Part shown: positions 1-62,700 of the stretch, piece by piece
Layout of the letters: each line of letters starts with the position of its first letter
How positions within the stretch are numbered: the stretch's first letter is position 1
Origin: Beroe forskalii
Lineage: Eukaryota > Ctenophora > Nuda > Beroida > Beroidae
Length of the DNA stretch: 64,000 nucleotides
Direction: 5' to 3'
Assembly (NCBI GenBank): GCA_011033025.1
Contig: WFMF01000376.1
Span: forward strand, 1 to 64,000
Translations under genes and position numbers: made by a program
Notes under the pieces: model-generated
The model's database searches: none
What the model was told of the DNA's origin: nothing
Seen by the model: the letters and a program-made list of their open reading frames with translations, nothing else

Positions 1-27
1 GGTAAGACAGTTGTTAACCACGCCATG
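1..27 (-). CDS. Start of exon 5, left copy (cut by window edge)
   Basis: The first 27 bases are the reverse complement of the start of the right-arm exon at 62,487 (HGVVNNCLT), preceded on the minus strand by a TTTCAG acceptor. The rest lies outside the window. Confidence 0.55.
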
Positions 28-323
28 CTGAAACAAAGTTATAATAGCCGTTATATGAAACAGCATCGCTCATAATGATACACTATTTGTTTATTTATTT
101 TCAATATAACCAACCCAATCGTCGTTCATGAAAGCTATAAAAGTATGAAGGCATATAATATAGAGACCACACAATATGTATGGTGTTCATTTACTCCATG
201 TTTGGTAAAGAGTACTTTTTAAGCTTTTAAGAAAACTGCTTTCAAAGAACTGTTTTAAGAAAATCATGTTTTTCTAAAGGAAAATTTTTGAAAAACTTTT
301 TTTTTCCGAAAAAAAAAACATAC

Positions 324-467
324 CGAGTGATTAGGGCACAGGACAGTAAAGGTTGTTTTGATGAGTTTGCACTTCTGAGCTACGGCGCAGTGAAAGTGGT
401 AGCGTGCCGAGCATCCCTCCTTGAAGCAACCCACACTGGCTCCGATCTCTTCACAGCTCGAGCAGAT
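324..467 (-). CDS. ePHD exon 4, left copy
   Basis: Forty-eight codons on the minus strand with CSSCEE, CFKEGC, YHFHC and CPNHS ligands, flanked by an AG acceptor and a GTATGT donor. It is the inverted counterpart of 62056-62199. The plus-strand frame covering this interval is a shadow. Confidence 0.7.
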
Positions 468-802
468 CTGGTTATCAAATTACGGGAATAATTTCATACG
501 TAAGAAGGACAGATTTTTCAAGGTGACCAATGTCTAAAATTGAGAATAACTCAAACATTAAGAATATAAATTTCTGATACAATAATTTAATGACACTTGG
601 TCCAAGAAATAATGCCACTTGGGCTAAAATCAGTCAAGAAGTAAGTCAGATAGATAGTGGCTCCAGCCACCCAATCTTCATTGCTGTGTAGCATTGAGCA
701 CAGGCAAAAAAGGCACTTTGTAGCACTGCCAATAGAAGTGTTGCAAATAAGAGTTTTGTCCGATACTATAGTCTATCATGTCTTGATACAAGAGTAACTC
801 AC

Positions 803-907
803 AGTGAACCTGGCCACTTTGAAGAGCTCCTCCAATCCATACACATCGAATCCGATCATGTAAACACCGGGGGACCAGCAGATACAGTCTTCGTGCAGCC
901 ACACCTC
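803..907 (-). CDS. ePHD exon 3, left copy
   Basis: Thirty-five codons, identical in structure to the right copy: begins EVWLHEDC, continues WSPGVYMIGF and YGLEELFKVA, and ends before a GTGAGT donor. The acceptor AG is chosen by phase 0. It supplies the His and Cys of the middle zinc site. Confidence 0.7.
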
Positions 908-979
908 CTCCCTACGATATGAAATAGTTATAAACTCTAACTAATGACAAATTAATAATAAATTAATAAGTTAACGAGA

Positions 980-1345
980 ATTGCGCCTGCCGACGCATTT
1001 CTTCCCGTTGTTCCCGAATGCAGGCGCTTAATTTCCCTCCCCGCAGTACTTGCTAACCCTCTTCAATGCCTTTTTGTAAGACAAAAAGGCGTGGTGGGGG
1101 ATGTGTAACGGTAGTTCTATGATAACCTTTAGTTATGTAATAAGGTTATCAAAGTAGAGAGCACTGGATTCCCGAATGAGGGTACAAAAAGTCCCATTTC
1201 GTAGACCCTTAAATGAGGACGTTACGATCGCTGGACATCAGCGTGTGCGCGTAAACGCGCGCGTTTGAGCGATTATGACTGAGAAATTGCGCCGAAGTCA
1301 CTGCAATAAATCTTTCGCGTCTCGATTTTACAGAAGACCTTATCG
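980..1345 (-). repeat. Dispersed two-hairpin repeat, copy 1
   Basis: On the minus strand this block holds a CGCC-T-rich hairpin (GCCTTTTTGT / ACAAAAAGGC, 1068-1091) and a second hairpin built from GCGCCTG / CAGGCGC (983-1027), joined by a GGGGAGGGAAATTAAG-type stretch. The same modules recur at 27,365-28,275, 35,500-35,580, 61,140-61,560 and 62,990-63,305. No coding capacity is seen. It lies in intron 2 of the ePHD gene copy and is paired with 61,140-61,560 by the duplication. Confidence 0.6.
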
Positions 1346-2473
1346 TGAGCAGAACATGTTTTACGCGACTTGGGACAAGCCGCGCCGCAAATTTCGGCAC
1401 TCCAAATGCGCGCGTCGCGCGCGCGTGAACATGTGCAATTTCCTCCCATGAACGCACACAAAATCGTGAATGATTTACTATCTCGTTGAAGCGATTTACA
1501 TCAATTAGTTTGACTAGTTCATAATCATTGTTAGTTGCTTAAGTTGTCAATTGTCTTTGATTTGTTTTGAATTCAGCCGACCTTTTTCATCCAACCAAAG
1601 TCTAAAATTGCCTTCTAATCTTCGAGCCATTATAACCGGTCATTAAGACGATTCCAGTAACTCGAATTTTTATAAAGTTGTTGTTCTTGTTTTAACTATT
1701 ATCTCGTAATCGCGTAGGTAGATGCTTTAATCACGCCTTTAAAGGACGGGTGTACTTAAAAATTGACTTCTTCTAAATTTAACAAAAAATTCAGTATATC
1801 ATGGTTATTATTATAGTAATCGAATCTCGAAAGTCCCACCTCTCTACTCCGTGTGTAACGCAAGATATGGGCGTAAATTAGAAACATGATACCTTATGGT
1901 GTGACGACTGACGTCAGTTCTTCCTTGGAATCACTGCCCACAGCCGCCGTGTATGTAAAATCGCTATGTAAACACTAATTCTGTTGCTATACCTAATTGA
2001 TCTATTATTGTTGTGTTTCACTGCAGATTACAAAACTTCAGTTGTTCAATCTGGTTTATAACAATAAATCTTCTGTTGTTTAATAACGCACTATAATATA
2101 TTGATTATCAATCAATAATGACAAAATCCAGATATTATGTGAACATATTATCCTTATCCATACAAAGTAGAACAAGAACAAGACGTATCTACGTATGATA
2201 TGCCTTAGACAACAGTGTATCGTTTTAAACTAAATCGTTAACTTTATGTTGTAATCGCCACAAGTACTGTCGGATACTTAGAATTCTTTCAGTGAATTTA
2301 ATTCGTCTAATCCATGAAAACCTGTGTATTGTCCATTAGGAATAGAGTATAATTCTCTGATTACGTGCTCAACACAGGATGGAAGCCTGTACCTTTTACC
2401 TATTCCCAAACCTCTAAAATTAAGAATATGTAGGAATGCCCTGTATTCTGATTGCTGTGTGTCTCAAGAGTCG

Positions 2474-3032
2474 GTAAAAGGGTCACAAGAGTTGTTAATT
2501 TTGTCCATTGGATCCATTGGATCCATCATGTCAAATGGACATCTTCAATGGACGTCCATTGGAGATCCAATGAATATCCATTGAGCATGATATCCATCGA
2601 TAAAATTTCCAATGGTGTTAAATGGATCCATTGGATGCATTTTTGATGTGCAATGGACATGTTTATTCATGGATTATATGGATGTTTAATGGGTCCATCT
2701 GAGTGCATCCAATGGATACAATCACCAAACATGGTTTGGTAAATGGATATCAGTCTGATATATTTGTTCAAAGGACCCATTATGTCCATTGGTCCAATGG
2801 ATCCATTGTGTCCATTGAACACCATTCGACATGTCTATTGAATCCATTGCGACATTGGATCCAATGGATACATTTTTTCCATTGAACAATGTTTGGTGAT
2901 TTTGTTCGTTGGATCCACTCAGATGGATCCATTGAACATCTATTGGATCTATTGAACATGTCCATTGAACATCAAAAATGGAACCATTGTATCCATTGGA
3001 CAAAATTCACCACTCTTGTGACCCTTTTACTC
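2474..3032. mobile_element. Foldback element with CCATTGGAT/ATCCAATGG core, copy 1
   Basis: The ends are inverted: GTAAAAGGGTCACAAGAGTT at the left and its near complement AACTC/ACTCTTGTGACCCTTTTAC at the right. Between them the sequence is almost entirely the octamer CCATTGGA, its complement TCCAATGG and GGATCC junctions, so the whole unit can fold on itself. All frames here are repeat shadows (HWIHWIH, SNGYNGS). A second copy with the same ends is at 25,500-26,132. Confidence 0.75.
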
Positions 3033-3959
3033 ATGAGTCTATTAAATTTTTCCACTTCTTCTCTTTTAATTTAACTGGAAAACAAGAAACATCGACACAA
3101 AATGATAACAAATCTGGAGGAAGCGTAATGTACTCATTGTTGTTGTAGTACTTTACGGTATTATTGAAATGTGAAACGTACAGACATGATATCACGTCTA
3201 TTCATAATGATATCGGAATATATACTTGATTGGATCAATGAATCTTCTTTTCATTTATTGCACATGATTTTACATTGTATTACCACAACTACCACTCACA
3301 GGTGTGATCTAAAATTTCTCTCTAAAAATTAATGATTAATCAGCAAAACGCTTTCATTATGATATAAAACTGGTGTTAGTAAGCTCTCAAGCAGTATATA
3401 CGAGAGCGCACAAGGAAGAACTGACGTCACAGCGTAATTTATTTATTTAGCTCTCACACGCGATAGGAAGGGAATTTGATTACCGGGATTTCACAGAAAT
3501 GCTTAGTAACATGTACTTGACATATGATTTGAATATGAGCATAGGTTAATTTTAAGTACACTCGTCCTTTAAATCGACCCCACTTTGACTGCCCGATTGG
3601 AAGGTGAGAAGAGCCTCAATTTCAGCCTGAAGATGGGATACATTATCAAAGTATCATGTACGATGACATTAATTTGACAATAATTGAGAATAAGCACCAT
3701 TCCCAGTCGAGAGGCAAAGATGAAGGCAAATGTTTCATGGGGGAAAAAGGTCTCAAATGCGTTGTTAAGATATCGTGTCTACATATTTTGCCTTGTCGGT
3801 CACCATGGCTGCTAAGCCATACCTTGCTAAACAACTCAAATCCCATATTGATCTGCCAAGATGTAAAAAAGGAACTGACCTAGTGACCTACTTATCTAAT
3901 ATCCATAATCCAATTTAGCCGAAATGCAACTTTTGACCCAAATTCAGTTAATCTGAATC

Positions 3960-5460
3960 AGGTGGCAACAGGGGAAAATGTCGCCCGAGGCAACATAAGA
4001 TTTTGACACCTCAAATTTGCTTGATATGAGCCACACCCGAAAGGCGAAAATCCCATCTTCCCTGCCAATCTGATGGCAAAAGAGGGACAAGTGGTGGCAA
4101 AAGAGGGACATTATCAGCCCGTGGCCACGCCCGTCACCCAGATTCCAAGCCCCATAAATGCGCGAAAAGTAGCTAGCTGGGTGACAAAAAAAGGGACAAA
4201 GGTCGCCTGAGGCGACATGGGATTTTAAGGCCTCAAATATGCTTAATATGAGTTGTTATGGTTAGATATCATGTTTAAGAGTTGCCAGGCCATCATAGGA
4301 GCCATGCCCAACCTTGGGCCACGCCCAAAAATCCCATCTTTCCTGTCAATATGGTGGCAAAAAAGGGACAAGTGTGGACATGGCAATTTCAGCCGATAAA
4401 TCACTCCAAATCATTTCATTTCGATCTTAAAAGTTAATTTAGGGTTCCTAGACACTAAATCAATCATTCACAGCCCATTAATGCCCAGATTCCACGCCCC
4501 ATAAATGCGCGAAAAGTCGCTAGCTGGGTGGCAAAAAGGGACACAAGTCGCCTGATTTTGAGGCGATGAGTTGTTAATGTTATGGTTGGGATTTTAACAG
4601 ATAAATGTGCTTAATATGAGTTGTTAATGTTGGTGGTTAGGGTTATGGTTCATGGCGAGTTGCCAGGCCATCATAGGAGCCACGCCCAACCTTGGGCCAC
4701 GCCCAAAAATCCAATATTTCCTGCCAATATGGTGGCAAAAAAGGGACAAGTGTGGACATGGCAATTTCAGCCGATAAATCACTCCAAATCATTTCATTTC
4801 GATCTTAAAAAGTTAATTTAGGGTTCCTAGACACTAAATCAACCATTCACAGCCCGTGGCCACACCAGATTCCACGCCCCATAAATGCGCGAAAAGTCGC
4901 TAGCTGGGTGGCAAAAAGGGACAAAAAGTCGCCTGAGGCGACGTGGGTTTTAAGGCCTCAAAATCACTTAATATGATTTTTTTATGGTTTAGATATCATG
5001 TTTAAGAGTTGCCAGGCCATCATAGGAGCCGCCCCAACAGGCCACGCCCAAAAATCCAATCTTTCCTGCCAATATGGTGACAAAAAAAGGGACAAGAGTG
5101 GACAAGGCAATTTCAGCCGATAAATCACTCCAAATCATTTTCTTTTGATCATAAAAGTTAATTTAGGGTTCCTAGACACTAAATCAACCATTCACAGCCC
5201 GTGGCCACGCCCAGATTCCACGCCCCAAGAATGTGCGAAAAGTCGCTAGCTGGGTGGCTATGGTTAGATATCAATATCATGTTTAAGAGTTGCCAGGCCA
5301 TCATAGGTGCCACGCCCAACCTTGAGCCACGCCCACAAATCCCATCTTTATTGCCAATATAATGGCAAAAAAGGCAAAAGTGTGGACAAGGCGATTTCAG
5401 CCGATAAATCACTCCAAGTCATGTTATTCCGATCAAAAAAGTTAATTTAGGGTTCCTAGA
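3960..5460 (-). repeat. Array of about 350-bp units, first orientation
   Basis: Four to five partly degenerate units, recognised by GTCGCCTGAGGCGAC (a perfect 15-base hairpin) near 4,203 and 4,928, the run GCCAGGCCATCATAGGAGCC, and GCTAGCTGGGTGGCAAAAA. Units are in the opposite direction to the array that follows. No gene is visible. Confidence 0.75.
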
Positions 5461-7235
5461 CACATTTGAGGCCTTAAAATCCCATGTCGCCTCAGGCGAC
5501 ATTTTTCCCTTTTTTGCCAACCAGCTAGCGACTTTTCGCACATTTATGGGGAATGTAATCTTGGCGTGGCCACGGGCTGGGAATGGTTGATTGAGTGTCT
5601 AGGAACAATAAATTAACTTTCAAGATCGAAATGAAATGATTTGGAGTGATTTATCGGCTGATTTATGAACACTTGTCCGTTTTTGCCACCATATTGGCAG
5701 GAAAGAAGGGATTTTTGGGCGTGGCTCATGGTTGGGTGTGGCTTCTATGATGGCCTGGCATGATATCTAACCATAACAACTCATATCAAGCACATTTGAG
5801 GCCTTAAAATCCCACGTCGCCTCAGGCGACTTTTGTCCCTTTTTTGCCACCCAGCTAACGACTTTTCGCGCATTTATGGGGCGTGGAATCTGGGCATTGC
5901 CAAGGGTTGGGAATAGTTAATTTAGTGTCTAGAAACCCTAAAATAACTTTTATGATCAAAAGAAAGTGATTTTGAGTGATTTATCGGCCGAAATCGCCAT
6001 GTCTGCACTTGTCCCTTTTTTGCCACTGATTGGCAGGAATGATTGGATTTTTGGGCGTGGCTCCTAGGATGGCCTGGCAACTCTTAAAAATGATTTCTTA
6101 CCATAACCACTCATATCAAGCACATTTGAGTCCTTAAAATCCCACGTCGCCTCAGGCGACTTTTGTCCCTTTTTGCCACCCAGCTAGCGACTTTTTGCGC
6201 ATTTATGGGGCGTGGAATCTAAGCGTGGCCACGGGCTTTGAATGGTTGATTTAGTGTCTAGGAACCCTTAATTAACTTTTAAGATCGAAATGAAATGATT
6301 TGGAGTGATTTATCGGCTGAAATTGCCATGTCCACGCTTGTCCCTTTTTTGCCACCATATTGGCAGAAAAGATGGGATTTTTGGGCGTGGCCCAAGGTTG
6401 GGCGTGGCTCCTATGATGGCCTGGCAACTCTTAAACATGATATCTAACCATAACATCTCATATTAAGCACATTTGAGGCCTTAAAATCCCACGACGCCTC
6501 AGGCGACTTTTGTCCCTTTTTTGCCACCCAGCTAGCGACTTTTCGCGCATTTATGTGGCGTGGAATCTGGGCGTGGCCACGGGCTGTGAATGGTTGATTT
6601 AGTGTCTAGGAACCCTAAATTAACTTTTAAGATCGAAATGAAATGATTTGGAGTTATTTATCGGCTTAAATTGCCATGTCCACACTTGTCCCTTTTTTGC
6701 CACCATATTGGCAGGAAAGATGGGATTTTTGGGCGTGGCCCAAGGTTGGGCGTGGCTCCTATGAATGGCCTGGCAACTCTTAAACATGATATCTAACCAT
6801 AACAACTCATATTAAGCACATTTGAGGCCTAAAAATCCCACGTCGCCTCAGGCGACTTTTGTCCCTTTTTTGCCACCAAGCTAGCGACTTTTCGCGCATT
6901 TATGGGGCGTGGAATCTGGGCGTGGCCACGGGCTGTGAATGGTTGATTTAGTGTCTAGGAACCCTAAATTAACTTTTAAGATCGAAATGAAATGATTTGG
7001 AGTGATTTATCGGCTGAAATTGCCATGTCCACACTTGTCCCTTTTTTGCCACCATATTGGCAGGAAAGATGGGATTTTTGGGCGTGGCCCAAGGTTGGGC
7101 GTGGCTCCTATGATGGCCTGGCAACTCTTAAACATGATATCTAACCATAACAACTCATATTAAGCACATTTGAGGCCTTAATTAAAATCCCACGTCGCCT
7201 CAGGCGACTTTTGTCCCTTTTTTGCCACTTTTTTG
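5461..7235 (+). repeat. Array of about 350-bp units, second orientation
   Basis: Six units with the hairpin GTCGCCTCAGGCGAC near 5,486, 5,814, 6,144, 6,491, 6,840 and 7,193, giving a period close to 350 bp. The last units are nearly identical, the first more diverged. Together with the inverted array before it, this makes a head-to-head foldback about 3.3 kb long inside the larger insertion. Confidence 0.8.
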
Positions 7236-7261
7236 TCCCACGTCGCGTAAAACATCGCCTC

Positions 7262-8163
7262 ATCGTGAGTGTATGTCAATTATACATACAAAGAATTGTA
7301 CCACTTTCATGAACTGACCTAAAATCGTGTTGGATAGAACTATGAAATGACTAAGAAGGGGAAATATCAAAAACTGCCTAATTCCATGGCCGCAATGGAG
7401 TGAATTTGTTTTTTTTCCTAGATTATTATGGTAACATACCTTTCTACCGTTATATGATCATCATCAATAGACTGTAAGACATCGTTATTGAAAGTGCTGC
7501 TCAGCTTCTCAAACAAATTCTTAGCGCTTTCAGACATGTTCTTGTTTCGGTAACTGTTCTGAAATGGACATATCAATGGGGGAGTGTTGGTTTTCATCTT
7601 CCTGACTGTATCAGTTTCAACTTTTCTACAGCTATTGAAGATAGCATAGAGGTCGAATATATAACAAAAAAGGGGACTAATTTTTGGCCATTCTTTTTTG
7701 GGAATTGCTCAAAAGCTTGTATTAACGATATCTCTGCTTCTCTTTGAGCAAAAGTAATGAATAACCACTTAACTAATCGATGCAGAATTGTCGGTTTTGG
7801 TGAAGCATAGTTTTAAGGCTCTATCTCAACCGTTCAAAGACTCATAATCGTTGAAGTAGCTGACAAGTTGAAAGGTTGGAGCTCAGAAGGACCTACAACA
7901 CAGTGTGCTGTACATTTCGTTGTATTTTCTCAGCTCTTGCTAATTGCGATAAATGCACTGCTTCAGCTAGGGCATAATGCTAGTGCTACTTGTGCTTGTG
8001 TAACGAAACAATAATACAAGTACAAAATGACGAACGTGGAAGTTATGAATCAGTACATCAGCTTCATGGGCGATTGTGGTCGACCTGGTAGGAAAGATGG
8101 AGTGAAGTTGATGATTTCAGTGCTGAACTGATGATAGATGTGCTCAAGAAATCCCATCGTGAG
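7262..8163 (-). other. Intron 2 of left ePHD copy, between the insertion and the satellite
   Basis: Homologous in inverted order to 61,150-60,600 and 59,489-59,079 in the other arm. At about 7,814-7,822 the left arm has the empty site of the 1.1-kb insertion present on the right. The stretch 8,040-8,163 leads into the satellite with a short frame ending KKSHREG, which also precedes the right-arm array. No complete gene is seen. Confidence 0.55.
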
Positions 8164-8870
8164 GGCAGTGGTTGCAGCTCTCAGTTGTCACGCAGTACCC
8201 CTCCTACAGGATTTCATTGGTTGCAGCTCTCAGTTGTCACGCAGTACCACCCTACAGGATTTCATTGGTTGCAGCTCTCAGTTGTCAAGCAGTACCCCTC
8301 CTACAGGATTTCATTGGTTGCAGCTCTCAGTTGTCACGCAGTACCCCTCCTACAGGATTTCATTGGTTGCAGCTCTCAGTTCTCACGCAGTACCCCTCCT
8401 ACAGGATTTCATTGGATGCAGCTCTCAGTTGTCACGCAGTACCCCTTCTACAGGATTTCATTGGTTGCAGCTCTCAGTTGTCACGCAGTACCCCTCCTAC
8501 AGGATTTCATTGGTTGCAGCTCTCAGTTGTCACGCAGTACCCCTCCTACAGGATTTCATTGGTTTCAGCTCTCAGTTGTCACGCAGTACCCCTCCTACAA
8601 AATTTCATTGGTTGCAGCTCTCAGTTGTCACGCAGTACCCCTCCTACAGGATTTCATTGGTTGCAGCTCTCAGTTGTCAAGCAGTACCCCTCCTACAGGA
8701 TTTCATTGGTTGCAGCTCTCAGTTGTCACGCAGTACCCCTCCTACAGGATTTCATTGGTTGCAGCTCTCAGTTGTCACGCAGTACCCCTCCTACAGTATT
8801 TCATTGGTTGCAACTCTCAGTTGTCACGCAGTACCCCTCCTACAGGATTTAATTGGTTGCCGCTCTCAGT
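8164..8870 (+). repeat. 49-bp satellite array, left copy (about 14 units)
   Basis: Tandem 49-bp units (key run CTCAGTTGTCACGCAGTACC, then CTCCTACAGGATTTCATTGG). 49 is not a multiple of 3, and the unit has no stop in any of the three plus frames, so all three frames are open and spell the same 49-residue cycle in different phase (LQLSVVTQYPSYRISLVAA and so on). Units differ by scattered point changes with few indels. The array is embedded in a degenerate transposon-type reading frame (KKSHREG before, KKSYSSVLQK after). Confidence 0.9.
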
Positions 8871-9055
8871 TTTCAGTTCAAAAAGAGAAGAAGTCATATT
8901 CTTCAGTCTTACAGAAGGAGACACAATCCACTCTGTTTCAGGAAAATGAAGCGAGTGTGGTGACCGTCAAGAAACTTGGTGAAGCAGTCAAGGATGGCTC
9001 TGACGTTCCTTATCTCATTATCGACCCAAGAGCTAAAATTGGGCCTCATGGATAG
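8871..9055 (+). pseudogene. Remnant of transposon ORF after the satellite (left)
   Basis: In frame with one of the three satellite frames, the sequence continues QKEKKSYSSVLQKE and ends in KLGEAVKDGSDVPYLIIDPR before a stop at 9,053. The right arm has the same segment (55,160-55,330) plus a coiled-coil stretch that is absent here. It resembles the first ORF of LINE-like or other retroelements of aquatic invertebrates, but this is recognition by pattern only. Host function is not supported. Confidence 0.4.
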
Positions 9056-9509
9056 CCAAAATAGCCAACTTTGGGATTAATATCTTAATATCTCGGGAAC
9101 GAACTGAGTTAGAGTCTTGAAAAGATAAAGATATTGTTTCTATCTTGATCTTCTTGAAACGTCTGGCTCGCTTGGGGCTGCTGACCTCAGACCCCTCCTT
9201 ACAACTGTTAGACGCACACTTAAATCAGTTCCCCATGCCAGTAACCCTAAAATTTGCAGCAAAAATAACATTTGGACTTTATATCAGTTCTCCATGTTAG
9301 TATGTTACTGGGGGGAATCTCACTGTCCTAACTGCCCCAATTTTCCCTGTTCCAATTTACTTTTGTTACGAAAGTCAAATTTATCCCTGTCCCGGTTCAC
9401 TTTTTCCAGAGTTAGGACTTAGGGACATATCGGAAAGTGGCACTAGGTAATTAAGTAATTAGTGAACGTGAGCTCATTAAAATCTGTAAGTAAATATATT
9501 ATATCCTAC
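9056..9509 (-). other. Intronic sequence of left ePHD copy
   Basis: Inverted counterpart of 54,265-55,150. It includes a GGGACA-rich dispersed segment near 9,300-9,410 that is also seen at 54,400-54,500 and more distantly at 46,000-46,150. No exon is recognised. Confidence 0.5.
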
Positions 9510-9610
9510 CTTTGGAGGGACATTCAGATCAAACGGTCCAAACAAAGGTCCCATGTCACCATAGTCACCAGTCAGATTGCACAGCGAACAAAACCATGTA
9601 GGTTTTTTGG
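9510..9610 (-). pseudogene. Truncated ePHD exon 2 of left copy
   Basis: This matches the last 101 bases of the 144-bp right-arm exon 54121-54264 and keeps the WFCSLC zinc-ligand pair, the LFGPFDL motif and the GTAGGA donor. The first 43 bases and the acceptor are missing. The sequence switches at 9,610/9,611 to a short stretch and then to the terminus of the foldback element that starts at 9,626. Expression of an intact ePHD from this copy would need a new splice acceptor. Confidence 0.75.
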
Positions 9611-10399
9611 AACTGTGTGGCATACCTGTGAAAAAATTCGTTCTTAAGGTTTTGATGCTCCAATCGACTCCAATAGGTGTCTAGAGTCACCAAAAAAATT
9701 TATTCAATTTTTGGAGTTGCGGAAAACCCAGGGTGACCACGCCCTTTTTTGACCGTGGGAATTTTTGAGGTAAATCACTAGAATTTAGCTGAATCGCAAC
9801 TAAGGCATGATTATACTCTAAACCTAGGTTTTTTGATACGAAAAATCGATTACAACCATTTTCTAGACGTCAAATCGCATATTTTGGCCATAATTGGCCA
9901 CGCCCAGTTTTTGTCATTGCCATTTTGACTAAAAATCTCAAAATTTTGATAAGACCATACCATATCATGATTATACTCTAAACCTACGTTTTTTGCTACG
10001 AGAAATCGATTAAAGCCACTATCTAGACGTCAACTTACATATTTTGGCCATTTCTGACCACGCCCAGTTTTTGTCATTGCCGTTTTGGCCAAAAATCTCG
10101 AAATTTTGATGTGACCGTACCATAACATGATTATACTTTAAACCTATGTTTTTTGATACGAGAAATCGATTAAAGCCACTATCTAAGCGTCAACTCGCAT
10201 ATTTTGGCCATAACTGACCACGCCCAGTTTTTGTCCTGATTGTTTTGGCCAAAAATCTCGAAAATTTGATAAGACCATAACATACCATGGTTATACCATG
10301 ATTATACATTTTGATTCGAGGCAATAACATTACACCATGATTATACTATACTCCAGGCACATGTCTTCGATGGGTTTGATAAGAAACATCCATTGAAAC

Positions 10400-11540
10400 C
10401 AGTATCCAGACCAGTATTGACCCAATTTTTCTCATGCCAATTTTGGGAACACTTAATTAATGGTAGCATTCCAACCTTGACAGCATATTCCTCCAGACAA
10501 CACTCTTTCCTTGAGAGCCGGGGAGCATTCTTTACTCTACCCTTGACAACACTTCATCACAGACACTTTACAGTACACTCCACCTGGCAGCACTCTACCC
10601 CTTGACACACTTTATCCTTGACTCTTGACAGCTTACAGAATTCTACTCTCAACAGCACTCCACCCTTGGCAAGAATCCTTCCTTGCCAAGAGAGGAAGAA
10701 TCCCTCCCCACCCATGGCATCAACCTGTTTATCCTTGACAACAATCGACCTTTGACTGCACTTCACGATAACAGCTTTCGTTACTTGACTGCAGACAAAT
10801 AACTTATTCAATCGCACATTTTAGCCTTGAACCTTTGATAGCATTCTACGCTTGGCTTTTACAGCACTTAATTTTTGACAGCACTTTCCCTTGACAGCAC
10901 TATATCCTTCACAGCTCACTTCAACCTTTACACCAAGCTACCCTTGATAGCACACATCCCTAGACACCACTCTACGGGGTATTACACCACTTTACAGTTT
11001 ACCCTTGACATCACTCTATCCTTGACAGGACTCTTCCCTTGGCTCCACTCCACACTTCACCATTCACTTCGATGCTATACATCACTTTAACCTTTGAAGC
11101 ACTCTATCCTTGACAGAAATCTACTCTAGACTGCTAGACATCACTCTTCCTTAGATTAAGTCAAGGGTAGAGTGCAGTCAAGTTGATGGCACTGTACACT
11201 TGACAGCAGTATACATTTAACAACACTCCACATTTCACAGCACTCTTCCCTTGATAGCAATTTATTCGTAACAGCACGCTTTCTTTGAAGCTTTGAGAGA
11301 ACTCTTACCTTGATACCAACTTTTCCTTGACATTGGTCTTCCCAATTTCTCCTTGACAGCATTCTACCCTTGACTTTTTGAAACCACTCAACCTTTGGCA
11401 ACACTCTTTTCTCTGCATCAGTGTTCTCTTGAGTTTGACAACACTCTACCTTTGACAACAATCCTTTGACACCACTTGCACTCTTCAGTCTTGACTTGGC
11501 CTCACACAAACCTTGACGATGCACTTGAGTATGCATCATC
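10400..11540. repeat. Degenerate TTGACAGCACTCTACC minisatellite
   Basis: Dozens of variants of CTTGACAGCACTCTACCC with variable spacing, mostly on the plus strand up to about 11,150 and with a short stretch of complement near 11,160. It is the core of the foldback element. The minus-strand frames (10,557-10,817; 11,156-11,539) are repeat-derived. Confidence 0.75.
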
Positions 11541-11993
11541 AGATATCAAGTGAACTCCTGAATAATATCACCACTTAACAACACTGCTTATAATATCAAA
11601 TTTGAGGATGTGAGGGGGATAGTATTCGGTTTCTATAGGCTTATAAGGCAGACAGAGCTCAAAACGTTTCCAATCAAGTTCGGCTGCAGTGACCGTTACT
11701 AAAAAGTCCCATTTTTTAGTTATCACCCGTAATGAAACATATGTAAAGATGAAAGTACCAGAAGGCAACTTCATCTGATACTTTGACATTTTGAGGGGCT
11801 GGCCTTGGAGTTTGCAGTAAAGTTAAGAAAGGAATAGGTGGAAGGCTTAACGAACCTCCAGTATTCAACAGATTGAAGCCAACAGACATTCAGAAGCTCG
11901 CCAATGTCAGAATTTTGGGTGCCAGACTTAACAGTTCATCGTGTCGTTTAGAGTATGTTTTATGCTATGGCCTTCTAAATCGCAATTGTTATA

Positions 11994-12822: not shown

Positions 12823-12917
12823 AGTTCCCTTACTGTATTTGTTACAATAACATGTAACGTAATCATTCTGGAACCCCCTCCTCTCCCCCTTGGTGATAAC
12901 GTAATATGTGAACAATC
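12823..12917. mobile_element. Partial MITE of the AGGGATCGTTCAC family
   Basis: Shares GTTACAATAACATGTAACG, AATCATTC, the C-rich run and GTAATATGTGAACAATC with copies A and B, but lacks the left end. It occupies the junction between the foldback element and the resumed ePHD intron homology at about 12,928. Confidence 0.5.
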
Positions 12918-15812: not shown

Positions 15813-15813
15813 C

Positions 15814-49530: not shown

Positions 49531-51349
49531 TGTGCTTAATTTTTTTTCTGAGTGATGTTATTGTCATAGATAATGAAGGCTCCCATCTATATGGGAGACT
49601 GACACAAAATTTCAAGTGAAATTAGATATGATTTTAGATCACTAAATAGCTCTATGCTCTATGCTCTTTCAGATATATACCAGTATTCGCTTGTTAGCAT
49701 TGTATAATAAATCTAAATTCATGTTGAAAATGGCATAAAGCATATGTCGAAATATCCCTACAATGAGGGCTTTTTATTTTGAGTTCAAGTTTATTCTACT
49801 ACTCTGCTTCCCGCCCAATATACCAGTTTTATGGCACTTTTAATAACAGAGTCATCCTGAACTATCTCGGGCATGTAAGAGTGTGTGTAATTAGTTTACT
49901 TTTTACATGTAAATCACATTCAAGTGTCATTACCATTTCTCCCTCCGAGTAACGTGTACACATCATAAGAAAAAAAAAAACGTGCATGTTTTCAATTTCG
50001 TCTGAGTATTGTCCGCATTTTTGTCCGCGTTTTCTTGCCGGGAAAACGCAGTACAGGAACATCGCTGTAAACCTCATTTTGATGATAAAGTAGCTGTAGG
50101 TGTATTTGTAGAATTGTTATTTTTCATTGAGTTAATAGATGCTTTTTAGAGAGTTCATTCTTAGGTTTTCACCATGGGTTCATTTATATATTGTTGTGTT
50201 TTTGTGTTTTTGTGTTTTAACATTTTATATTGATTTTCATACTTTCAAACATCACTTCACATTAATCTCAGAATGTTGTGTTGCACTATATGGAGTTCCT
50301 GAAGAAGAGATTTTTATCAATTGCTTCAGTGGGGTTATACTCAAGAGTCTCATTGTTTCAATTGATCTGAGTAAATTTTTGATATTCCTCTAACTTTTGC
50401 GAACTCGTTTAGAGAAACAAAGATTTATTATTCAAAAATATTTTCAATGATCGACACCATCTTCAGTTCTGAAAATTAAAAATTAGTTATTAAAATGAAA
50501 AATCTGAAAATTAAGTTAAAATAAAATTTGCAATTATAATTACGTCTTAAAATTGTCAAAATATACATTATACAAATATTGGTCTATGTATACAATATAC
50601 AATGTTTTAAATACTATGATAATATACTAATCAAAACCTGGAACTGTAAACATCAACATTATAGTATACATACGAGGCTGCTACACACATTATACACAAC
50701 ATACTACCAAGCTCCTACTCTATGATACATTCTCAATTCCTGGTTTAACTGATCTATTGAAACTGTCAGTAGAATAGTGGAGTATAGTGTGTGGGTTAGA
50801 TTACTTTATTGAAAGTTGTTTGTTTCACTGCATCAATGATCAATCACATCAAACACGTTTTAATAACTTCGAGGAGAAATGTTCAAATTGATAAATAATG
50901 ATTATTTGTATATGTACTAAGCTTCTAGAATCGTGTCTTAAGCGGGATTATGTTTTTAAAAGTAAATATGAGAGATTCGACTATTAAATCTGGTAGTTCT
51001 AGCATGTAAACTGCGCCATAAAAGTTGTTCGCATAGATTTATGTTTCTTGTTTGCAAGGATGCAATTGATATCTGTTCTACAAAGAAAATGATATTAATA
51101 ACAATATTGTATATTCTAATCAGCAAAATGTGCTATTAAAGAAATCCATTCGACACTCTGGCAATTCAATGCTGTGTCCTGTGCACAGGCTATCCTCATA
51201 CGGCTATGCGTAGGCATTAGCCAACGGAGAACCTGTGCGAGGCCCAGCAGTGAGTAGCCTTGATGTTTTGTGTTCTGCGATTTGAATCTGTCTCAATGTA
51301 GTTCAATAAAACTTAATTTTTGCATGAAGCATTACTGTTTCTTTCTTTC

Positions 51350-52156
51350 CTGTGCAGGCATCTCCACCACTCTATAGTTTTAAAAAATGATCATGTCCCC
51401 AGTAGTTTTTCTTTTTGATTTATGGCCCCTGGATCACAAAAGATCTTGCAAGTAATGAATTTGGTGATTGCTATAATTATGCTGCATAATCACTTGTTTG
51501 AAAGGTATGCCATTGAAATTCCAAATTCCTAGCATTAGAGTGAATGGGTAGAATTTCCTGCCATTTACCTTCAGATGATGATAGAAGGGTGGGTGGGATG
51601 GTGTAGGGAGGGAGGATGGGAGTAGGGAGGTTTTGTGTGTTGATGAGATGAGGCTGCCATTTGGGGCAAGCAGCACCAATGAGCTGAAGTATTCCTGTTG
51701 CAGCCATCAAGGGATTAGATGCCTTCCATGCCTGGTAAAATCATATCTCAATGAAGTGGATAAAGTGGGAAGAACCATGAATTATGGGAGTGTCCTGGCT
51801 TCTTGTAGTACTGATAGATGATCAGCATCTACACACTTACACAGCATAGGTTGCATACCCAGACTTATGCATGCATGCAGTAAGCCCTGTTTCATTTTCA
51901 GAGTTGTTCAGGAGGGTTATGTGAAACATCTGCTCTCTTGTCTGCTTCATGTCTCAGATGACACATCGGAATTGGAGCATTTTTATTGTTTATAGACCTT
52001 GTGATCAATAAAAATTTTCACTAAATTCAATTTTTTGATAATTTCCTAGTAAAACAAAAATATTCTCCTGGTACTCATATGTTCTCAGAGTATCTTTTGA
52101 AAGGTTACTCAAAGTGGGTACTTTATTAACCAGTTAATCACCTGCCTTTGAGGTGA
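51350..52156 (+). other. Upstream region of the right ePHD gene
   Basis: Arm homology starts near 51,350. About 510 bp (51,437-51,950) are absent from the left arm. The last 200 bp before the ATG are conserved in both arms, so promoter or 5' UTR sequence is likely there, but no core promoter motif is clear. Confidence 0.4.
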
Positions 52157-53752
52157 ATGGAGTCAAATGAAATGCTTAAATTTCTGGACAATGATGATGG
52201 TGAAAAGGAACATGATGACAAAGCTTCTGATCAAGAAAGCCAACAAGAAATGTTGGATGTTCCTAATTTTTCTCAGGGCACAGAAAAGAGTAGCAATATC
52301 TTATCAGAAGCATGGTCATTATGTTGTGACACAAATGAATTAAACACTCCTTGTAACCAGAAATTATTTCATGGCAGGAATGCATCCACTAATGAACAAG
52401 CTGGGTTATCAGGTGTAAGTGGAGAGAATGATTGTGTTTTGAAGTCTAACTGTTCTGATCATGGTTCAAGTCAGCTTGTTAATGCAAATAGAGAAGTGCC
52501 TGAGATAAGGACTAGCCACAGACCAACAAATGAAATAGGTGAAGCTCAACCTGATGCATCTGTTAGTGTAAAATTGCTACATAATATACATCAGCCAGAT
52601 ATAGGTCAAAGTGACTCAATATCAGATGATCAAGCCACTACTGCTGGATTTTTAAAAGAAAACAACCCCCTGGGTGAAAATTGTCAGATAGGCAACGATG
52701 TATCTAATGAACTGATAAAATCTAATGCTTGTCCATCTGCTACAGAAGGTACTTTAAAGATTGATGCCAAAGCAAACATCGAAAATGTTTCTACTGATAG
52801 TTCATCAAAGATAGATTCAATCACAAATGATAATCATGGAATCACTGGCATAATCAAAGAAAGTGGCAAAGTTATTGATGAATCAATGTCTGAAGAACTG
52901 CTGGCATCAAAATCGAATATTTCCTCAACTCCTGAAAGACCCCAAAGGAAGCGTAAACTTCCATCAAAGCTATCAGATGAATCAATAATGAAAGATGCAA
53001 AAGAAACAGCTATTATTATCAATGAACACAAGAGAATCAAAAGTGAAAGAACACACTCAAATAACGATCATGAGGCCACAATGTCTGATTTAGATTCTGA
53101 AAAGCTTAAGTTACAGAAGCTAGAGGAGTTCCAAAGGAAACATAACTCTCGTAAGCAACAAGATGCCCTGTGTACATTTTCCCTGAGAGATATTGGTATA
53201 TCTTTGAATACCAAAGGTGAAGTAACGTTGTCTATGCCTGATTCAATAAAGAATTTGATTGCCAAAGAGGGATCAGTTAATATCAATTTTGATGTTAATT
53301 TCCTTGATTCAGATAATTGTTTGAAATTCAAGGTTTCTGAAGACATTGATGCTATCTCATCTGCATTTGAAACTGATGCTCAGGATAATTTAGACCCCCT
53401 GGAATCTCAACAATCCAGCAATGACAGTGATTCAAATAATCAGTCTATTTCTATAAAGAAGGAATCTCATGCATCAGCAGCTGCTAATCACAGGACCACT
53501 GATGTACACTCTTCCTCAACCAGAGCAAAAAATAGCAAATTTGAGAAAAGGCCACAAAAAGGGACTTCTGCCTTAAATGCTTATAAGCAAATGAATAAGC
53601 GTGATTCATCTGTACAAGTTGATTACAAAACAAATTCACCTCAAAAGACTTCAAGTAGTTCATTTCTTCACAAGAGAAATACTGGTTCAGGATTTATTTC
53701 ATATCCTCAGTTCTCAAATGTTTCTGGATCGTCAATTGCCTCAGTTCACAAG
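52157..53752 (+). CDS. Exon 1 of right ePHD gene
   Basis: 532 codons, then donor GTAAAC. Retained intron would add 32 residues and a stop at 53,851. Same exon length as the left copy. A first coding exon is inferred from the conserved ATG with acceptable context (GTGAATGG). An upstream noncoding exon is possible. Confidence 0.78.
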
Positions 53753-56700
53753 GTAAACCTCACAATCTTACTTTCTTGGCATGAGGTTATTGCACTATTT
53801 TCTATTATCAATTATGATCCTAATTCAAGACATCATTCTTTTTATTATTAATATAAGTACCTAGGTTTATTAGGACACGAAAGTTTGAAATTAGAATTGA
53901 AATTAGAATTAAAATTAGAATAAAAGTTAAATTGTAAAATCTATTCAACCCAGGGTTGAGCCAGGGGGAAGGGGACACAGGCAAGTAGGCAACTACCCCA
54001 TTTCCGACAGAGGTGGTGGAAATTTTGTAATGATTAATGAGACATTCTACTGGTTTTAAATGTTACTTGCCGACCCCTTTCCAAAAACCCGGCTATGCCC
54101 TCAATACAACCTTTTTTCAGGTTATGAAAAATGTGAAGAAAGGATTGAGCATTGACAAGAAGACCAAAAAACCTACTTGGTTTTGTTCGCTTTGCAATCT
54201 GACTGGTGACTATGGTGACATGGGACCTTTGTTTGGACCATTTGATCTGAATGTCCCCCCAAAGGTAGGATATATATTACTTATTTACTCAATTACATAT
54301 TATATATACAGATTTTAACGAGCTCACATTCACTGTGATAACCTAAAAACCTAAAATTGGGAGTGCCACTTACCGATATGTCCCTAAGTCCTAACTCAGG
54401 AAAAGGTGATTCGAAACAGGGACAAATTGGACTTTTGTGACAAAAGTAAATTGGGACAGGGAAAATTGGGACATTTAGGACAGTGACATTCCCCCCAATA
54501 ACATAGAGAACTGATATAAAGTCCAAAGGTTATTTTGCCACCAATTTTGAGGTTACTGGTATGGGGAACTGATTTAAGTGTAAGTCTAACAGTGTGGTGA
54601 CTCTCTAGGTAAGTGGTTCTCCTTTCCGGCATTCAACACAATGGGCGCAAGACGCAAGAAAAGGGAAGGGAACCGATGTAAGGGGTGGAATTTTCGATAA
54701 CTGTAGGAATACATATAGATGCAATGGGCACTAAGACGCTAGTATATCGTTATAGAAACATAGAAGACACTCTTGGATCAGTAAATGCTCTTCAATAGAA
54801 ACCTAAATTAAGAAGTATTTCATTATGGGGAAACCAACGGGGAATGGGGAAACAAATTGGGAAATAAAAGGGGGTACAAAGATTGTCCGACGCTGTCCTG
54901 ACCCCCTCGCGGGGGCCAGACGACGTTTGACAATACAAGGAGAGTATTCCATAACCAAGTCCATTGCCCAAACACCCCAAAAGGGGAGTATCCGGCGAGT
55001 TTTGGCTAGTTAAATTTTAAAAAAAGAAAAAAAAAGTCTAACAGTTGTAAGGAGGGGTCTGAGGGCAGCAGCCCCCAGCGAGCCATACTCTTCAAGAAGA
55101 TAAAAACATCGTTATCCAACTCAATCCGTTCCCGAAATATCAATCCCAAATTTGGCTATCCATGAAGCCCAATTTTAGCTCTTTGGTCGATAATGAGATA
55201 AGGAACGTCAGAGCCATCTTTGACTGCTTCACCAAGTTTCTTGACGGTCACCACACTCGCTTCATTGTCTTAATCTCCTTCTGTAAGACTGAAGAATATG
55301 ACTTCTTCTCTTTTGACTTAATTTCTTTGCTATTGCGACGTATGTGATTATACAGATGAGATTTAGATTCGTACACAGTTTCTTGGATCTTTTCAACCTG
55401 AACCTCTCTCTCATCAATGATCTGCTTTTGTAACTCGATTATCTTGGCTTGGTCGTCGATTATCTCTTCTCTCAGTTTCTGAATTCGCGCTGCATCTGGA
55501 TCTTTAATGAAATCCTGTAGGAGGGAAGCTGCGTGACAACTGAGAGCTGCAACCAATGAAATCCTGTAGGAGGGATACTGCGTGATAACTGAGAGCTGCA
55601 ACCAATGAAATCCTGTTTGAGGGGTACTGCGTGACAACTGAGAGCTGCAACCAATGAAATCCTGTAGGAGGGGTACTGCGTGACAACTGAGAGCTGCAAC
55701 CAATGAAATCCTGTAGGAGGGGTACTGCGTGACAACTGAGAGCTGCAACCAATGAAATCCTGTAGGAGGGGTACTGCGTGACAACTGAGAGCTGCAACTA
55801 ATGAAATCCTGTAGGAGGGGTACTGCGTGACAACTGAGAGCTGCAACCAATAAAATCCTATAGGAGGGGTACTGCGTGACAACTGAGAGCTGCAACCAAT
55901 GAAATCCTGTGTAGGAGGGTACTGCGTGACAACTGAGAGCTGCAACCAATGAAATCCTGTAGGAGGGGTACTGCGTGACAACTGAGAGCTGCAACCAATG
56001 AAATCCTGTAGGAGGTGTACTGCGTGACAACTGAGAGCTGCAACCAATGAAAGCCTGTAGGAGGGGTACTGCGTGACAACTGAGAGCTGCAACCAATGAA
56101 ATCCTGTAGGAGGGGTACTGCGTGACAACTGAGCTGCAACCAATGAAATCCTGTAGGAGGGTACTGCGTGACAACTGAGCGCAATGAAATCCCTGTAGGA
56201 GGGTACTGCGTGACAACTGAGAGCTGCAACCAATGAAATCCTGTAGGTACTGCTTGTCAACTGAGAGCTGCAACCAATGAAATCCTGTAGGAGGGTACTG
56301 CGTGACAACTGAGCTGCAACCAATGAAATCCCTGTAGGAGGGGTACTGCGTGACAACTGAGAGCTGCAACCAATGAAATCCTGTCCTGTAGGAGGGGTAC
56401 TGCGTGACAACTGAGAGCTGCAACCAATGAAATCCTGTAGGAGGGGTACTGCGTGACAACTGAGCTGCAACCAATGAAATCCTGTAGGAGGGGTACTGCG
56501 TGACAACTGAGAGCTGCAACCAATGAAATCCTGTAGGAGGGGTACTGCGTGACAACTGAAATCAGCTGCAACCAATAGTAGGAGGGGTACTGCGTGACAA
56601 CTGAGAGCTGCAACCAATGAAATCCTGTAGGAGGGGTACTGCGTGACAACTGAGAGCTGCAACCAATGAAATCCTGTAGGAGGGTACTGCGTGACAACTG

Positions 56701-59700
56701 AGAGCTGCAACCAATGAAATCCTGTAGGAGGGGTACTGCGCGTGACAACTGAGAATCCGAGCTGCGTGACAATGAAATCCTATGAAATAGGAGGGTACTG
56801 CGTGACAACTGAGAGCTGCAACCAATGAAATCCTGTAGGAGGGGTACTGCGTGACAACTGAGCTGCAACCAATGAAATCCTGTAGGAGGGTACTGCGTGA
56901 CAACTGAGCTGCAACCAATGAAATCCTGTAGGAGGGGTACTGCGTGACAACTGAGAGCTGCAACCAATGAAATCCTGTAGGAGGGGTACTGCGTGACAAC
57001 TGAGCTGCAACCAATGAAATCCTGCTGAGCTGCAACCAATGAAATCCTGTAGGAGGGTACTGCGTGACAACTGAGCTGCAACCAATGAAATCCTGTAGGA
57101 GGGGTACTGTGACAACTGAGAGCTGCAACCAATGAAATCCTGTAAGAGCTGCAACCAATGAAATCCTGTAGGAGGGGTACTGCGTGACAACTGAGAGCTG
57201 CAACCAATGAAATCCTGTAGGAGGGGGTACTGCTGACAATGAAATCCTGTAGGAGGGGTACTGCGTGACAACTGAGAGCTGCAACCAATGAAATCCTGTA
57301 GGAGGGGTACTGCGTGACAACTGAGAGCTGCAACCAATGAAATCCTGTAGGAGGGTACTGCGTGACAACTGAGAGCTGCAACCAATGAAATCCTGTAGGA
57401 GGGGTACTGCGTGACAACTGAGAGCTGCAACCAATGAAATCCTGTAGGAGGGGTACTGCGTGACAACTGAGCTGCAACCAATGAAATCCTGTAGGAGGGT
57501 ACTGCGTGACAACTGAGCTGCAACCAATGAAATCCTGTAGGAGGGGTACTGCGTGACAACTGAGAGCTGCAACCAATGAAATCCTGTAGGAGGGGTACTG
57601 CGTGACAACTGAGAGCTGCAACCAATGAAATCCTGTAGGAGGGGTACTGCGTGACAACTGAGAGCTGCATTCAATGAAATCCTGTAGGAGGGGTACTGCG
57701 TGACAACTGAGAGCTGCAACCAATGAAATCCTGTAGGAGGGGTACTGCTTGACAACTGAGAGCTGCAACCAATGAAATCCTGTAGGAGGGGTACTGCGTG
57801 ACAACTGAGAGCTGCAACCAATGAAATCCTGTAGGAGGGGTACGTGACAACTGAGAGCTGCAACCAATGAAATCCTGTAGGAGGGGGTGACAACTGAGCT
57901 GCAACCAATGAAATCCTGTAGGAGGGGTACTGCGTGACAACCGAGGCTAAATGAAATCCTGTGGGAGGGTACTGCGTGACAGCTGAGGTCTGCAACAATG
58001 AAATCCTGTAGGAGTACTGACAACTGAGAGCTGCAACCAATGAAATCCTGTAGGAGGGTACTGCGTGACAACTGAGAGCTGCAACCAATGAAATCCCTGT
58101 AGGAGGGGTACTGCGTGACAACTGAGAGCTGCAACCAATGAAATCCTGTAGGAGGGGTACTGCGTGACAACTGAGAGCTGCAACCAATGAAATCCCTGTA
58201 GGAGGGTACTGCGTGACAACTGAGCTGCAACCAATGAAATCCTGTAGGAGGGGTACTGCGTGACAACTGAGAGCTGCAACCAATGAAACCTGTAGGAGGG
58301 GTACTGCGTGACAACTGAGAGCTGCAACCAATGAAATCCTGTAGGAGGGGTACTGCGTGACAACTGAGAGCTGCAACCAATGAAATCCTGTAGGAGGGGT
58401 ACTGCGTGACAACTGAGAGCTGCAACCAATGAAATCCTGTAGGAGGGGTACTGCGTGACAACTGAGAGCTGCAACCAATGAAATCCTGTAGGAGGGGTAC
58501 TGCGTGACAACTGAGAGCTTCATTGCAACCAATGAAATCCTGTAGGAGGGGTACTGCGTGACAACTGAGGAGCTGCACAATGAAATCCTGTAGGAGGGGT
58601 ACTGCGTGACAACTGAGAGCTGCAACCAATGAAATCCTGTAGGAGGGGTACTGCGTGACAACTGAGAGCTGCAACCAATGAAATCCTGTAGGAGGGTACT
58701 GCGTGACAACTGAGAGCTGCAACCAATGAAATCCTGTAGGAGGGGTACTGCGTGACAACTGAGAGCTGCAACCAATGAAATCCTGTAGGAGGGGTACTGC
58801 GTGACAACTGAGAGCTGCAACCAATGAAATCCTGTAGGAGGGTACTGCGTGACAACTGAGCTGCTGCAACCAATGAAATCCTGTAGGAGGGGTACTGCGT
58901 GACAACTGAGAGCTGCAACCAATGAAATCCTGTAGGAGGGGTACTGCGTGACAACTGAGAGCTGCAACCAATGAAATCCTGTAGGAGGGGGTACTGCGTG
59001 ACAACTGAGAGCGAGCTGCAACCAATGAAATCCTGTAGGAGGGGTACTGCGTGACAACTGAGAGCTGCAACCAATGCCCTCACGATGGGATTTCTTGAGC
59101 ACATCTATCGTCAGTTCAGCACTGATATCATTTCTTCACTCTATACTGACTTCTTGGAAGAAAGCTTGTGTCGCATTGCCAATCAACTTCACTCCATCTT
59201 TACTACTACGTCGACCACAATCGCCCATGAAGCTGATATACTGATTCATAACGTCCACGTTTGTCATTTTCTACTTGTATTATTGTTTCGTTACACAAGC
59301 ACAAGTAGCAACTAGCATTATACCCTAGCTGTAGCAGTGTATTTATCGCAATTAGCAAGAGCTGATAAAACGTAACGAAATGTACAACACACTGTGTCGT
59401 AAGTCCTTCTGAGCAACTACCTTTCAACTTGTCTGCTACTTCAATGTTTATGAGTCTTGGAACGGTTGAGATAGAGCCTTAAAACTATGACTGCCAAGTA
59501 ACTTTTCACCAGGGCGACCGAGCCACTCTTTTACCATTGTACATCATAGAATCACATAATTATATATAACAATAATCATTACAGGACCAATTTGAAAATT
59601 TCTTCCTATTCATGAGCCATAGCATAATTGATGGACATATATTCCAAAAAAAGAATGAATAAAATTATGAAAATGAAAGATCCCCTCTCAGTCCATCTGG

Positions 59701-62700
59701 GATGAGATTGAATGAAATATCAGAAATAGGAATCTCGCGCTTGAGAGGAGCATGCCCCTAGATCCTCTCACTGACACAAGCACACTTTTCAGTAGTGCAA
59801 ATGACAGTTTGGTTCGCATCAAACTGATCACATCCCGGTATTCCTCGTGAGTTTTCTCTGCGATGAGCTCTGCAACCCTTCTGTGGAAAGCATGAGCTTG
59901 AGGAGCCATTCCTCCTGATGTACTGTACACGAGAGGTGTAAAGCTACACTTCTCAACCTGGATAACACGTTGCTCATAGTCTTTCTTCTTGATGTTTTCG
60001 TGCTGGGTGTAAACTGATTTTATGTCCCGATCTTTGTAAGAGTCAGCATTGGGGTGGAAGATTCTGACATCGAACATTGTCTTCTGAAAAGGCCCCCATA
60101 GCCCACGAGCAGAGATGTCAAGGCGAGCTCTCTCCTCGGTATTCCCTGGAATTGCCTGACAGGAATCGATAGGAATGAGCTCTGGCTCGGTCTTAACGTC
60201 ATGGCAAACTTCTCTAAGAAACGCAGCATTTGTGTCTCGAACTTTGTTGTGTCGGAAGATTAAATAGCCACCATTTTTACAAATCAAAGTGTGGTCTACT
60301 GAATTCTTCTTTCCACAGACACAAAATGCGGGAATGTTAGGGATTTGCCACCCGTACCTGAGCCTGAGTGCATCCTGGAACTCTTCCTTGTTCAGCACCC
60401 ATCCAAGGGAACCAATAGGAAGAACGGTAAGCCAAGCCCCGGCACCCTTTTCTTGGGCCAAGGTAATGGACCTCTTCATCTGACGAGTCTGATATAATGC
60501 CAGATATCTTCCTCAGCATCCTCACCTCTTTGTCCTTCATGCAGTCCCTGGTCACCTCAACCACACCGTCAGTCTGATATCCATCGAGCGTTGACTATGC
60601 TTCACCAAAACCGACAATTCTGCATCAATTAGTTGAGTGGTTATTCATTAGTCATTACTTCTGCTCAAAGAGAAGCTGAGATATCGTTAATACAAGCTTT
60701 TGAGCAATTCCCAAAAAAGGGTGTGGCCAAAAATTAGTCCCCTTTTTTGTTATATATTCGAACTCTTTGCTATCTTCAATAGCTGTAGAAAAGTTGAAAC
60801 TGATACAGCCAGAAAGATGAAAACTAACACTCCCCCCATTGATATGTCCATTTTCAGAACAGTTATCGAAATAAGAACATGTCTGAAAGCGCTAAGAATC
60901 TGTTCGAAAAGCTGAGCAGCACTTTCAATAACGACGTCTTACAGTCTATTGATGATGATCATATAACGGTAGAAAGGTATGTTACCATAATAATCTAGAA
61001 AAAAAAAATACAAAGTCACTCCATTGCGGTCATGGAATTAGGCAGTTTTTGATATTTCCTCATTCTTATTCATTTCATAGTTTTATCCAACACGATTTTA
61101 GGTCATTTCATGAAAGTGGTACAATTCTTTGTATGTATAATTGACATACACTCACGATAAGGTCTTCTGTAAAATCGAGACGCGAAAGATTTATTGCAGT
61201 GACTTTGGCGCAATTTCTCAATTATAATCGCTCAAACGCGCGCGTCTACGCGCACACGCTGATGTATGTCGATCGTAACGTCCTCTTTTATGGCACTCAG
61301 GGGTCAATGCTAAGGGACTTTTTGTACCCTCATTCGGGAATCCAGTACTCTCTACTTTGATAACCTTATTCCATTACTTAAGGTTATCATGGAACTACCG
61401 TTACACATTCCCCACCACGCCTTTTTGTCTTACAAAAAGGCATTGAGAGGGTTAGCAAGTACTGCGGGGGAGGGAAATTACTAAATTAAGCACAAAATTA
61501 CTAAATTAAGCACATTCGGGAACAACGGGAAAAATGCGCCGGCAGGCGCAATTCTTGTTAACTTATCATTAACATATTGTTATAAGTTAGTGTTCATTAC
61601 TTCTATATCGCAGGGAGGAGGTGTGGCTGCACGAAGACTGTATCTGCTGGTCCCCCGGTGTTTACATGATCGGATTCGATGTGTATGGATTGGAGGAGCT
61701 CTTCAAAGTGGCCAGGTTCACTGTGAGTTACTCTTGTATCAAGACATAATAGACTAGTATCGGTCAAAACTCTTATTTACAACACTTGTATTGGCAGTGT
61801 TACAAAGTGCCTTTTTTGCCTGTGCTCAATGCTACCCAGCAATGAAAATTGGGTGGCTGAAGCCACTATCTATCTGACTTACTTCTTGACTGATTTTAAC
61901 CCAAGTGGCATTATTTCTTGGACCGAGTGTCATTAAATTATTGTATCAGAAATTCATATTCCTAATGTTTGAGTTATTCTCAATTTTAGACATTGGTCAC
62001 CTTGAAAAATCTGTCCTTCTTACGTATGAAATTATCCCCATCATTTGATAACCAGATCTGCTCGAGCTGTGAAGAGATCGGAGCCAGTGTGGGTTGCTTC
62101 AAGGAGGGATGCTCGGCACGCTACCACTTTCACTGTGCGGTAGCTCAGAAGTGCAAACTCATCAAAACAACCTTTACTGTCCTGTGCCCTAATCACTCGG
62201 TATGTTTTTTTTTCGGAAAAAAACAGTTTTTCAAAAATTTTGTTTTAGAAAAACATGATTTCCTTAAAATAGTTCTTTGAAAGCAGTTTGCTTAAAAAGT
62301 ACTCTTTACCAAACATGGAGTAAATAGAACACCATACATATCGTTTGGTCTCTATATTATGTGTATTTATACTGAACAGCTTTCATGAACGACGATTGGG
62401 TTGGTGATATTGAAAATGAATGAACAAATAGTGTATCATTATCAGCGATGCTGATTCATATAACGGCTATTATAACTTTGTTTCAGCATGGCGTGGTTAA
62501 CAACTGTCTTACCGAAAAACCGTTCGTGAAAGTTAGGAACTGTGAGTAATTTGAAAAGAATATTTTTTATTTGGAGTTGGTGAAAAAAATATTGGTGATT
62601 TTTGTTACTCAGTTTTCAATTCCCCTTGTCATATTATTTATGCATGCAGATCAGAATAATGGTGGCCAGTTGGATTAATAGTCTGGGTGGTGATCGAAAG

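Follow-up and report, generated by a model that had tools for sequence, protein, structure and literature searches.

Background

Inverted gene copies that lie on one chromosome are known from several animals. In its account of young duplicates, PMC4546093 reports that those of Caenorhabditis elegans are for the most part inverted neighbours, and that inverted orientation is found in 77 of 143 young human duplicates that share a chromosome. Palindromes containing several genes are described for Folsomia candida and, in work cited there, for Adineta vaga (PMC5490193). The part of PMC7953838 that deals with draft assemblies cites reports of palindromes and states that misassemblies occur among them, and in a tunicate with 3.63% heterozygosity some palindromes were backed by a depth check, according to the section of PMC12448946 on this point. 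Here we describe a pair of inverted arms, each carrying a copy of a predicted zinc-finger gene, in the ctenophore Beroe forskalii. The stretch of DNA analysed (the window) comprises bases 1-64,000 of contig C443, which is 174,719 bp long and without N. In our judgement the arms are probably an ordinary, diverged local inverted segmental duplication.

The window is another instance of these known inverted local duplicates and palindromes of animals. As in the C. elegans and human cases, its copies have opposite orientations on one chromosome, but they lie about 29 kb apart, and with a synonymous divergence (dS) of 0.050 in exon 1 they fall outside the youngest cohort, as this is presented in PMC4546093. 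What the window shares with the palindromes known from Folsomia candida and Adineta vaga (PMC5490193, PMC7953838) is that reverse-complement blocks lie on a single contig and that each arm contains genes; however, the blocks counted in those species have at least five genes (by the account in PMC7953838), whereas we found one gene per arm.

Results and discussion

Homology and limits of the arms

Comparison of the window with itself gave seven collinear inverted blocks, which pair positions 1-15,053 with 62,513-51,354. These are 1-1349 with 62513-61151 (90.6% identity; here and below, block identities include gaps, and mismatch rates are given separately), 7258-7811 with 61162-60594 (93.0%), 7806-8875 with 59489-58358 (90.1%), 8881-9213 with 55314-55036 (78.1%), 9204-9610 with 54593-54164 (82.2%), 12920-14966 with 54030-51962 (95.2%), and 14974-15053 with 51433-51354 (90.0%). 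The similarity of the larger blocks is far above chance expectation (E = 0). Over 5,747 aligned bases there are 273 mismatches (4.75%), and the aligned share of 1-15,053 is about 38%, the remainder being arm-specific. When the assembly (216 Mb, 1,134 contigs) was searched with two arm segments, 12920-14966 and 1-1349, near-full matches were found in the two arms only, all others being short repeats of about 70-110 bp. The locus thus has two reverse-complement copies on one contig, with homology beyond transposons, as expected of a local inverted segmental duplication.

An earlier note on this DNA had described the arms as reverse complements apart from indels. The seven blocks bear out the inverted relationship, but the qualification was too mild: 9.2 kb of left-arm sequence, at 1350-7257 and 9611-12919, has no right counterpart, and the right arm has its own insertion of 1.1 kb, as well as a 49-bp array of 73 copies against 14 on the left.

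The inner edges that had been proposed, 15,055 and 51,350, proved wrong. Collinear order goes on inward with a 37-bp match (15146-15180/50922-50886), and is kept in further blocks within 19933-20319/49847-49505 (88-97% identity). Part of the 19933-20319 stretch is made up of a dispersed repeat; in the assembly search, 19930-20024 matched contig C443 alone, namely itself, its tandem neighbour 20127-20206, and 49611-49687 on the right. Because this private homology (19,930-20,024/49,611-49,687) continues inward, we place the arms at about 1-20,319 and 49,505-62,513. The left arm (1..20319, minus strand) includes the left-only insertions and is truncated at base 1, the right arm (49505..62513) is on the plus strand, and subtraction leaves a spacer at 20320..49504 of 29,185 bp, or about 29.2 kb in place of the 36 kb first estimated. 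The false inner edge arose because a left-only stretch, 15181-19932, interrupts the arm. Outward, the left arm cannot be followed, because contig C443 begins at base 1, which is also base 1 of the window. A candidate extension at 20503-20718/48849-48634 (70%) was discarded, as it sits in a dispersed repeat.

Positions 19945-20319 are built from a 182-bp unit, with two tandem copies in the left arm and one in the right arm. About 90 bp of this unit correspond to the genome-wide dispersed repeat, and several places have close opposite-strand matches.

A zinc-finger gene in both arms

The right copy of the gene (52157..62549, plus strand) is modelled with six exons, at 52157-53752, 54121-54264, 60858-60976, 61614-61722, 62056-62199 and 62487-62549 (stop included), the limits of the first and last exons being putative. 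The introns are GT-AG and the frame is open over 724 residues. The C-terminal part of the protein matches Pfam zf-HC5HC2H at 1.3e-9 (38.6 bits, above the curated cut-off of 29.1), with a second match to zf-HC5HC2H_2 at 1.4e-6, and the nearest chains of solved structure are KMT2D, PHF6 and JADE1; NTO1 was also matched. This region is an ePHD domain, and the view that each arm carries a gene with a chromatin-type domain holds. Because the domain spans exons, a Pfam scan of single open reading frames (ORFs) had missed the gene. The assembly gave nine exon-wise matches to the C-terminal protein, all nine within the two arms. Given a resemblance of its exon 2 motif, the gene may belong to the RAI1/TCF20 family. 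The domain order is similar: a C-terminal ePHD behind a long low-complexity N-terminal region is what PMC3799622, where it treats the RAI1/TCF20 (SPBP) family, describes.

The left copy (1..14777, minus strand) has exon 1 at 13182-14777, the core of exon 2 at 9510-9608, exon 3 at 7440-7558, exon 4 at 803-911 and exon 5 at 324-467, and its last exon is truncated at base 1. The two copies point outward from the spacer and are about 29 kb apart. Left exon 1 is open over 532 codons, with no gap and no stop, and differs from its right counterpart by 20 residues (non-synonymous divergence, dN, 0.016; dS 0.050). From the exon 2 core to exon 5, 12 bases differ in 471 bp, and all 12 differences are silent: the protein is identical over these 157 codons.

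The usual acceptor of exon 2 is absent from the left copy, in which 9611-12919 replaces right-arm 54031-54163, the segment that includes this acceptor. Inside the inserted left stretch, a frame-compatible AG at 9681 is a candidate acceptor for left exon 2 (minus strand). That the left copy is a plain pseudogene was considered but is not supported, being opposed by the open exon 1, the 157 identical later codons and the in-phase AG at 9681. The left copy may still be expressed, perhaps via a splice acceptor supplied by the insertion.

Divergence between the arms

Between the arms, 221 of 2,923 noncoding positions (7.6%) and 48 of 2,093 coding positions differ; indels amount to 36 events in 5,016 aligned bases, or 7.2 per kb. 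This pattern would fit purifying selection on the coding copies of both arms.

The earlier note had also raised the possibility of gene conversion from arm to arm. We found no support for it in noncoding sequence, where identity tracts are not in excess: the longest run, 73 bases, was reached in 25% of 2,000 shuffles. Over all sites the longest identical run is 152 bases, in the block of exon 1, and was reached by 1.7% of shuffles; selection accounts for this run equally well as conversion.

Arm-specific insertions and arrays

The left-only insertion at 1350..7261 (5.9 kb) is bordered by an 8-bp target duplication, ATCGTGAG, at 1342-1349 and 7262-7269, and has terminal inverted similarity and internal 349-bp repeats. 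The right arm represents the empty site, with ATCGTGAG present once. The 8-bp duplication, together with the ends, suggests that this insertion is hAT-like. The left-only stretch 9611..12919 holds an element with long inverted ends (9626-10232/12801-12198, 90%). The third, 15181..19932 (minus strand), contains reverse-transcriptase pieces of the family RVT_1 at 19312-19866 and 15814-16974, between which lies a stretch with inverted ends (16887-17210/19451-19137).

The right arm has an insertion of 1.1 kb at 59490..60593 (minus strand), with ACTATG at both sides and once in the left arm; a 274-residue ORF within it (59688-60512) had no Pfam match. A 49-bp tandem array is present in both arms, with about 14 copies on the left (8169..8871) and about 73 on the right (55506..59076).

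Other same-contig pairs in the assembly

A pattern survey, begun for another purpose and then extended, gave four sets of matches, taken in full for two (83 and 95 matches) and in part for two (totals of 352 and 213). We kept pairs on the same contig whose strings agree fully or differ at a single position, and removed low-complexity strings as well as strings or close variants found on several contigs. Among the matches listed there are at least eight inverted pairs (C132, C190, C234 twice, C110, C199, C371, C270) and at least four direct pairs (C173, C229, C349, C441), and most places are without a same-contig partner. Removed before this count were, among others, pairs in C11, C153, C159, C165, C179, C192, C225, C228, C247, C358, C401, C434, C802 and C937, together with other strings of C199 and C270 and surplus direct neighbours inside C270. 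As three of the 12 pairs have been confirmed at the sequence level, the 8:4 ratio is a hint only.

The three fetched pairs, C190, C234a and C234b, had been selected because they were inverted, and all three are inverted duplications, with 1.9-4.6 kb aligned and mismatch rates of 5.1%, 5.4% and 4.2%, respectively. No homology was found in the fetched flanks of C234a, on both sides of both arms; the flanks of C234b have matches of 44 and 35 bp only, and the outer flanks of C190 several of 25 to 84 bp. So the duplication in the window belongs to a class of which this genome has further members. The closeness of the mismatch rates in the five pairs measured could reflect a shared age or a shared haplotype divergence, or be due to chance.

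The C234 pair with 4.2% mismatch lies at positions 128034-135504 and 164503-170618 (L038, L039), with 4.6 kb aligned and tandem arrays in the arms.

Two broader scenarios draw on this set. It is conceivable, but in our view improbable, that local inverted duplications of almost the same age (4-6% divergence) are numerous in this genome, derived from a single episode of inverted copying or from allele-like copies on the same chromosome, and that the gene pair is among them, its left copy having been kept alive by a splice acceptor that a transposon provided. Least credible of all would be that alleles truly form spaced palindromes along a single chromosome, an organization that was reportedly once proposed for a bdelloid rotifer. 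The uniform divergence of 4-6%, shared by the four inverted pairs and a direct one, agrees with such an arrangement, but only five pairs were measured, the tested flank and spacer are single-copy, and the lack of a same-contig partner for most survey places among the matches listed speaks against it.

Duplication or misjoined haplotypes

An ordinary inverted duplication would have arisen when a segment bearing a single ePHD zinc-finger gene was duplicated in inverted orientation at a distance of tens of kilobases, presumably as an event in the germ-line genome. The resulting copies would be transcribed outward from the spacer that holds a transporter gene. Later, each arm would have gained its own transposon insertions and an altered length of the 49-bp array, the noncoding sequence diverging by about 7.6% and both coding copies being held by purifying selection. 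The mechanism usually proposed for inverted copying is replication-based template switching. In favour of this origin are the seven inverted blocks with the private inner block, the lack of a third full copy of the two segments searched, the confinement of the exon-wise protein matches to the arms, the arm-specific insertions with target duplications and an empty site opposite, the conserved coding sequence beside diverged noncoding sequence, and the other inverted pairs on single contigs, among them C234a with its unrelated flanks.

Several observations weigh against this explanation. The left arm begins exactly at the contig end, and one haplotype misjoin gives the same picture. Mismatch is near-equal in the four inverted pairs (4.2, 4.75, 5.1 and 5.4%), and a direct pair of C443 differs by about 6%, which counts here because shared haplotype divergence would also explain such rates. 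Silent-only change is also expected of alleles of one gene, and additional short matches occur in the outer flanks of C190 and C234b.

Taken together, these points could describe an assembly artefact, which we consider possible, if rather unlikely. The left 15-20 kb would then represent the second haplotype of the right arm, joined wrongly and in reverse to the spacer within a repeat; only one copy of the gene would exist, and the arms would differ through heterozygosity. The earlier note had warned of this, and the warning is fair in that the left arm sits at the contig end, where one misjoin is enough. The inner end of that arm is moreover rich in transposons, and a heterozygosity of 3.63% is known in a tunicate (PMC12448946). 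Against a misjoin, the heterozygosity it demands is high, at about 5% over all sites and 7.6% in the noncoding part. Contig C443 is without Ns, and when the right flank 62,515-70,000 and the spacer stretch 38,000-46,000 were searched in the assembly, short repeat matches were all that was found: neither an allele of the flank nor a second copy of the spacer is present elsewhere. Misassemblies do occur among assembly palindromes, as noted in PMC7953838 for drafts, and unrelated pairs show similar divergence, but the four arm ends of C234a lie inside contigs, beside unrelated sequence, such that two misjoins per arm would be needed there. The silent-only differences of the later exons are as a misjoin predicts; a simple haplotype bubble, on the other hand, gives no walk that reverses through a non-palindromic spacer.

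If the duplication is real, a further inverted gene pair, diverged yet maintained by selection, is on record, and there is a hint that local duplications in this genome are inverted at least as often as direct. If it is an artefact, gene counts and 'palindromes' of this assembly are inflated. With the arm limits corrected and the insertions of each arm listed, sequencing reads could readily decide the case.

Spacer and flanks

The spacer contains a transporter gene (41238..46610, minus strand), seen as five collinear minus-strand ORFs that match Xan_ur_permease with E-values from 0.0035 to 2.4e-11; two of the scores (43.4 and 28.0 bits) are above the 27-bit cut-off, and three (25.5, 20.0 and 16.5) are below it. 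The gene is presumably of the SLC23 type. The mucin-like ORF at 29611-30348 had no Pfam match at E <= 0.01. In the right flank, positions 62843-68936 of C443 contain several long open frames, abundant in Cys/His pairs and zinc-finger-like by eye. Further along the contig, 120336-121928 and 123670-125248 (L030) form a direct tandem pair with receptor-like frames of 354 codons, about 6% different, which have weak phmmer matches to leukotriene receptors.

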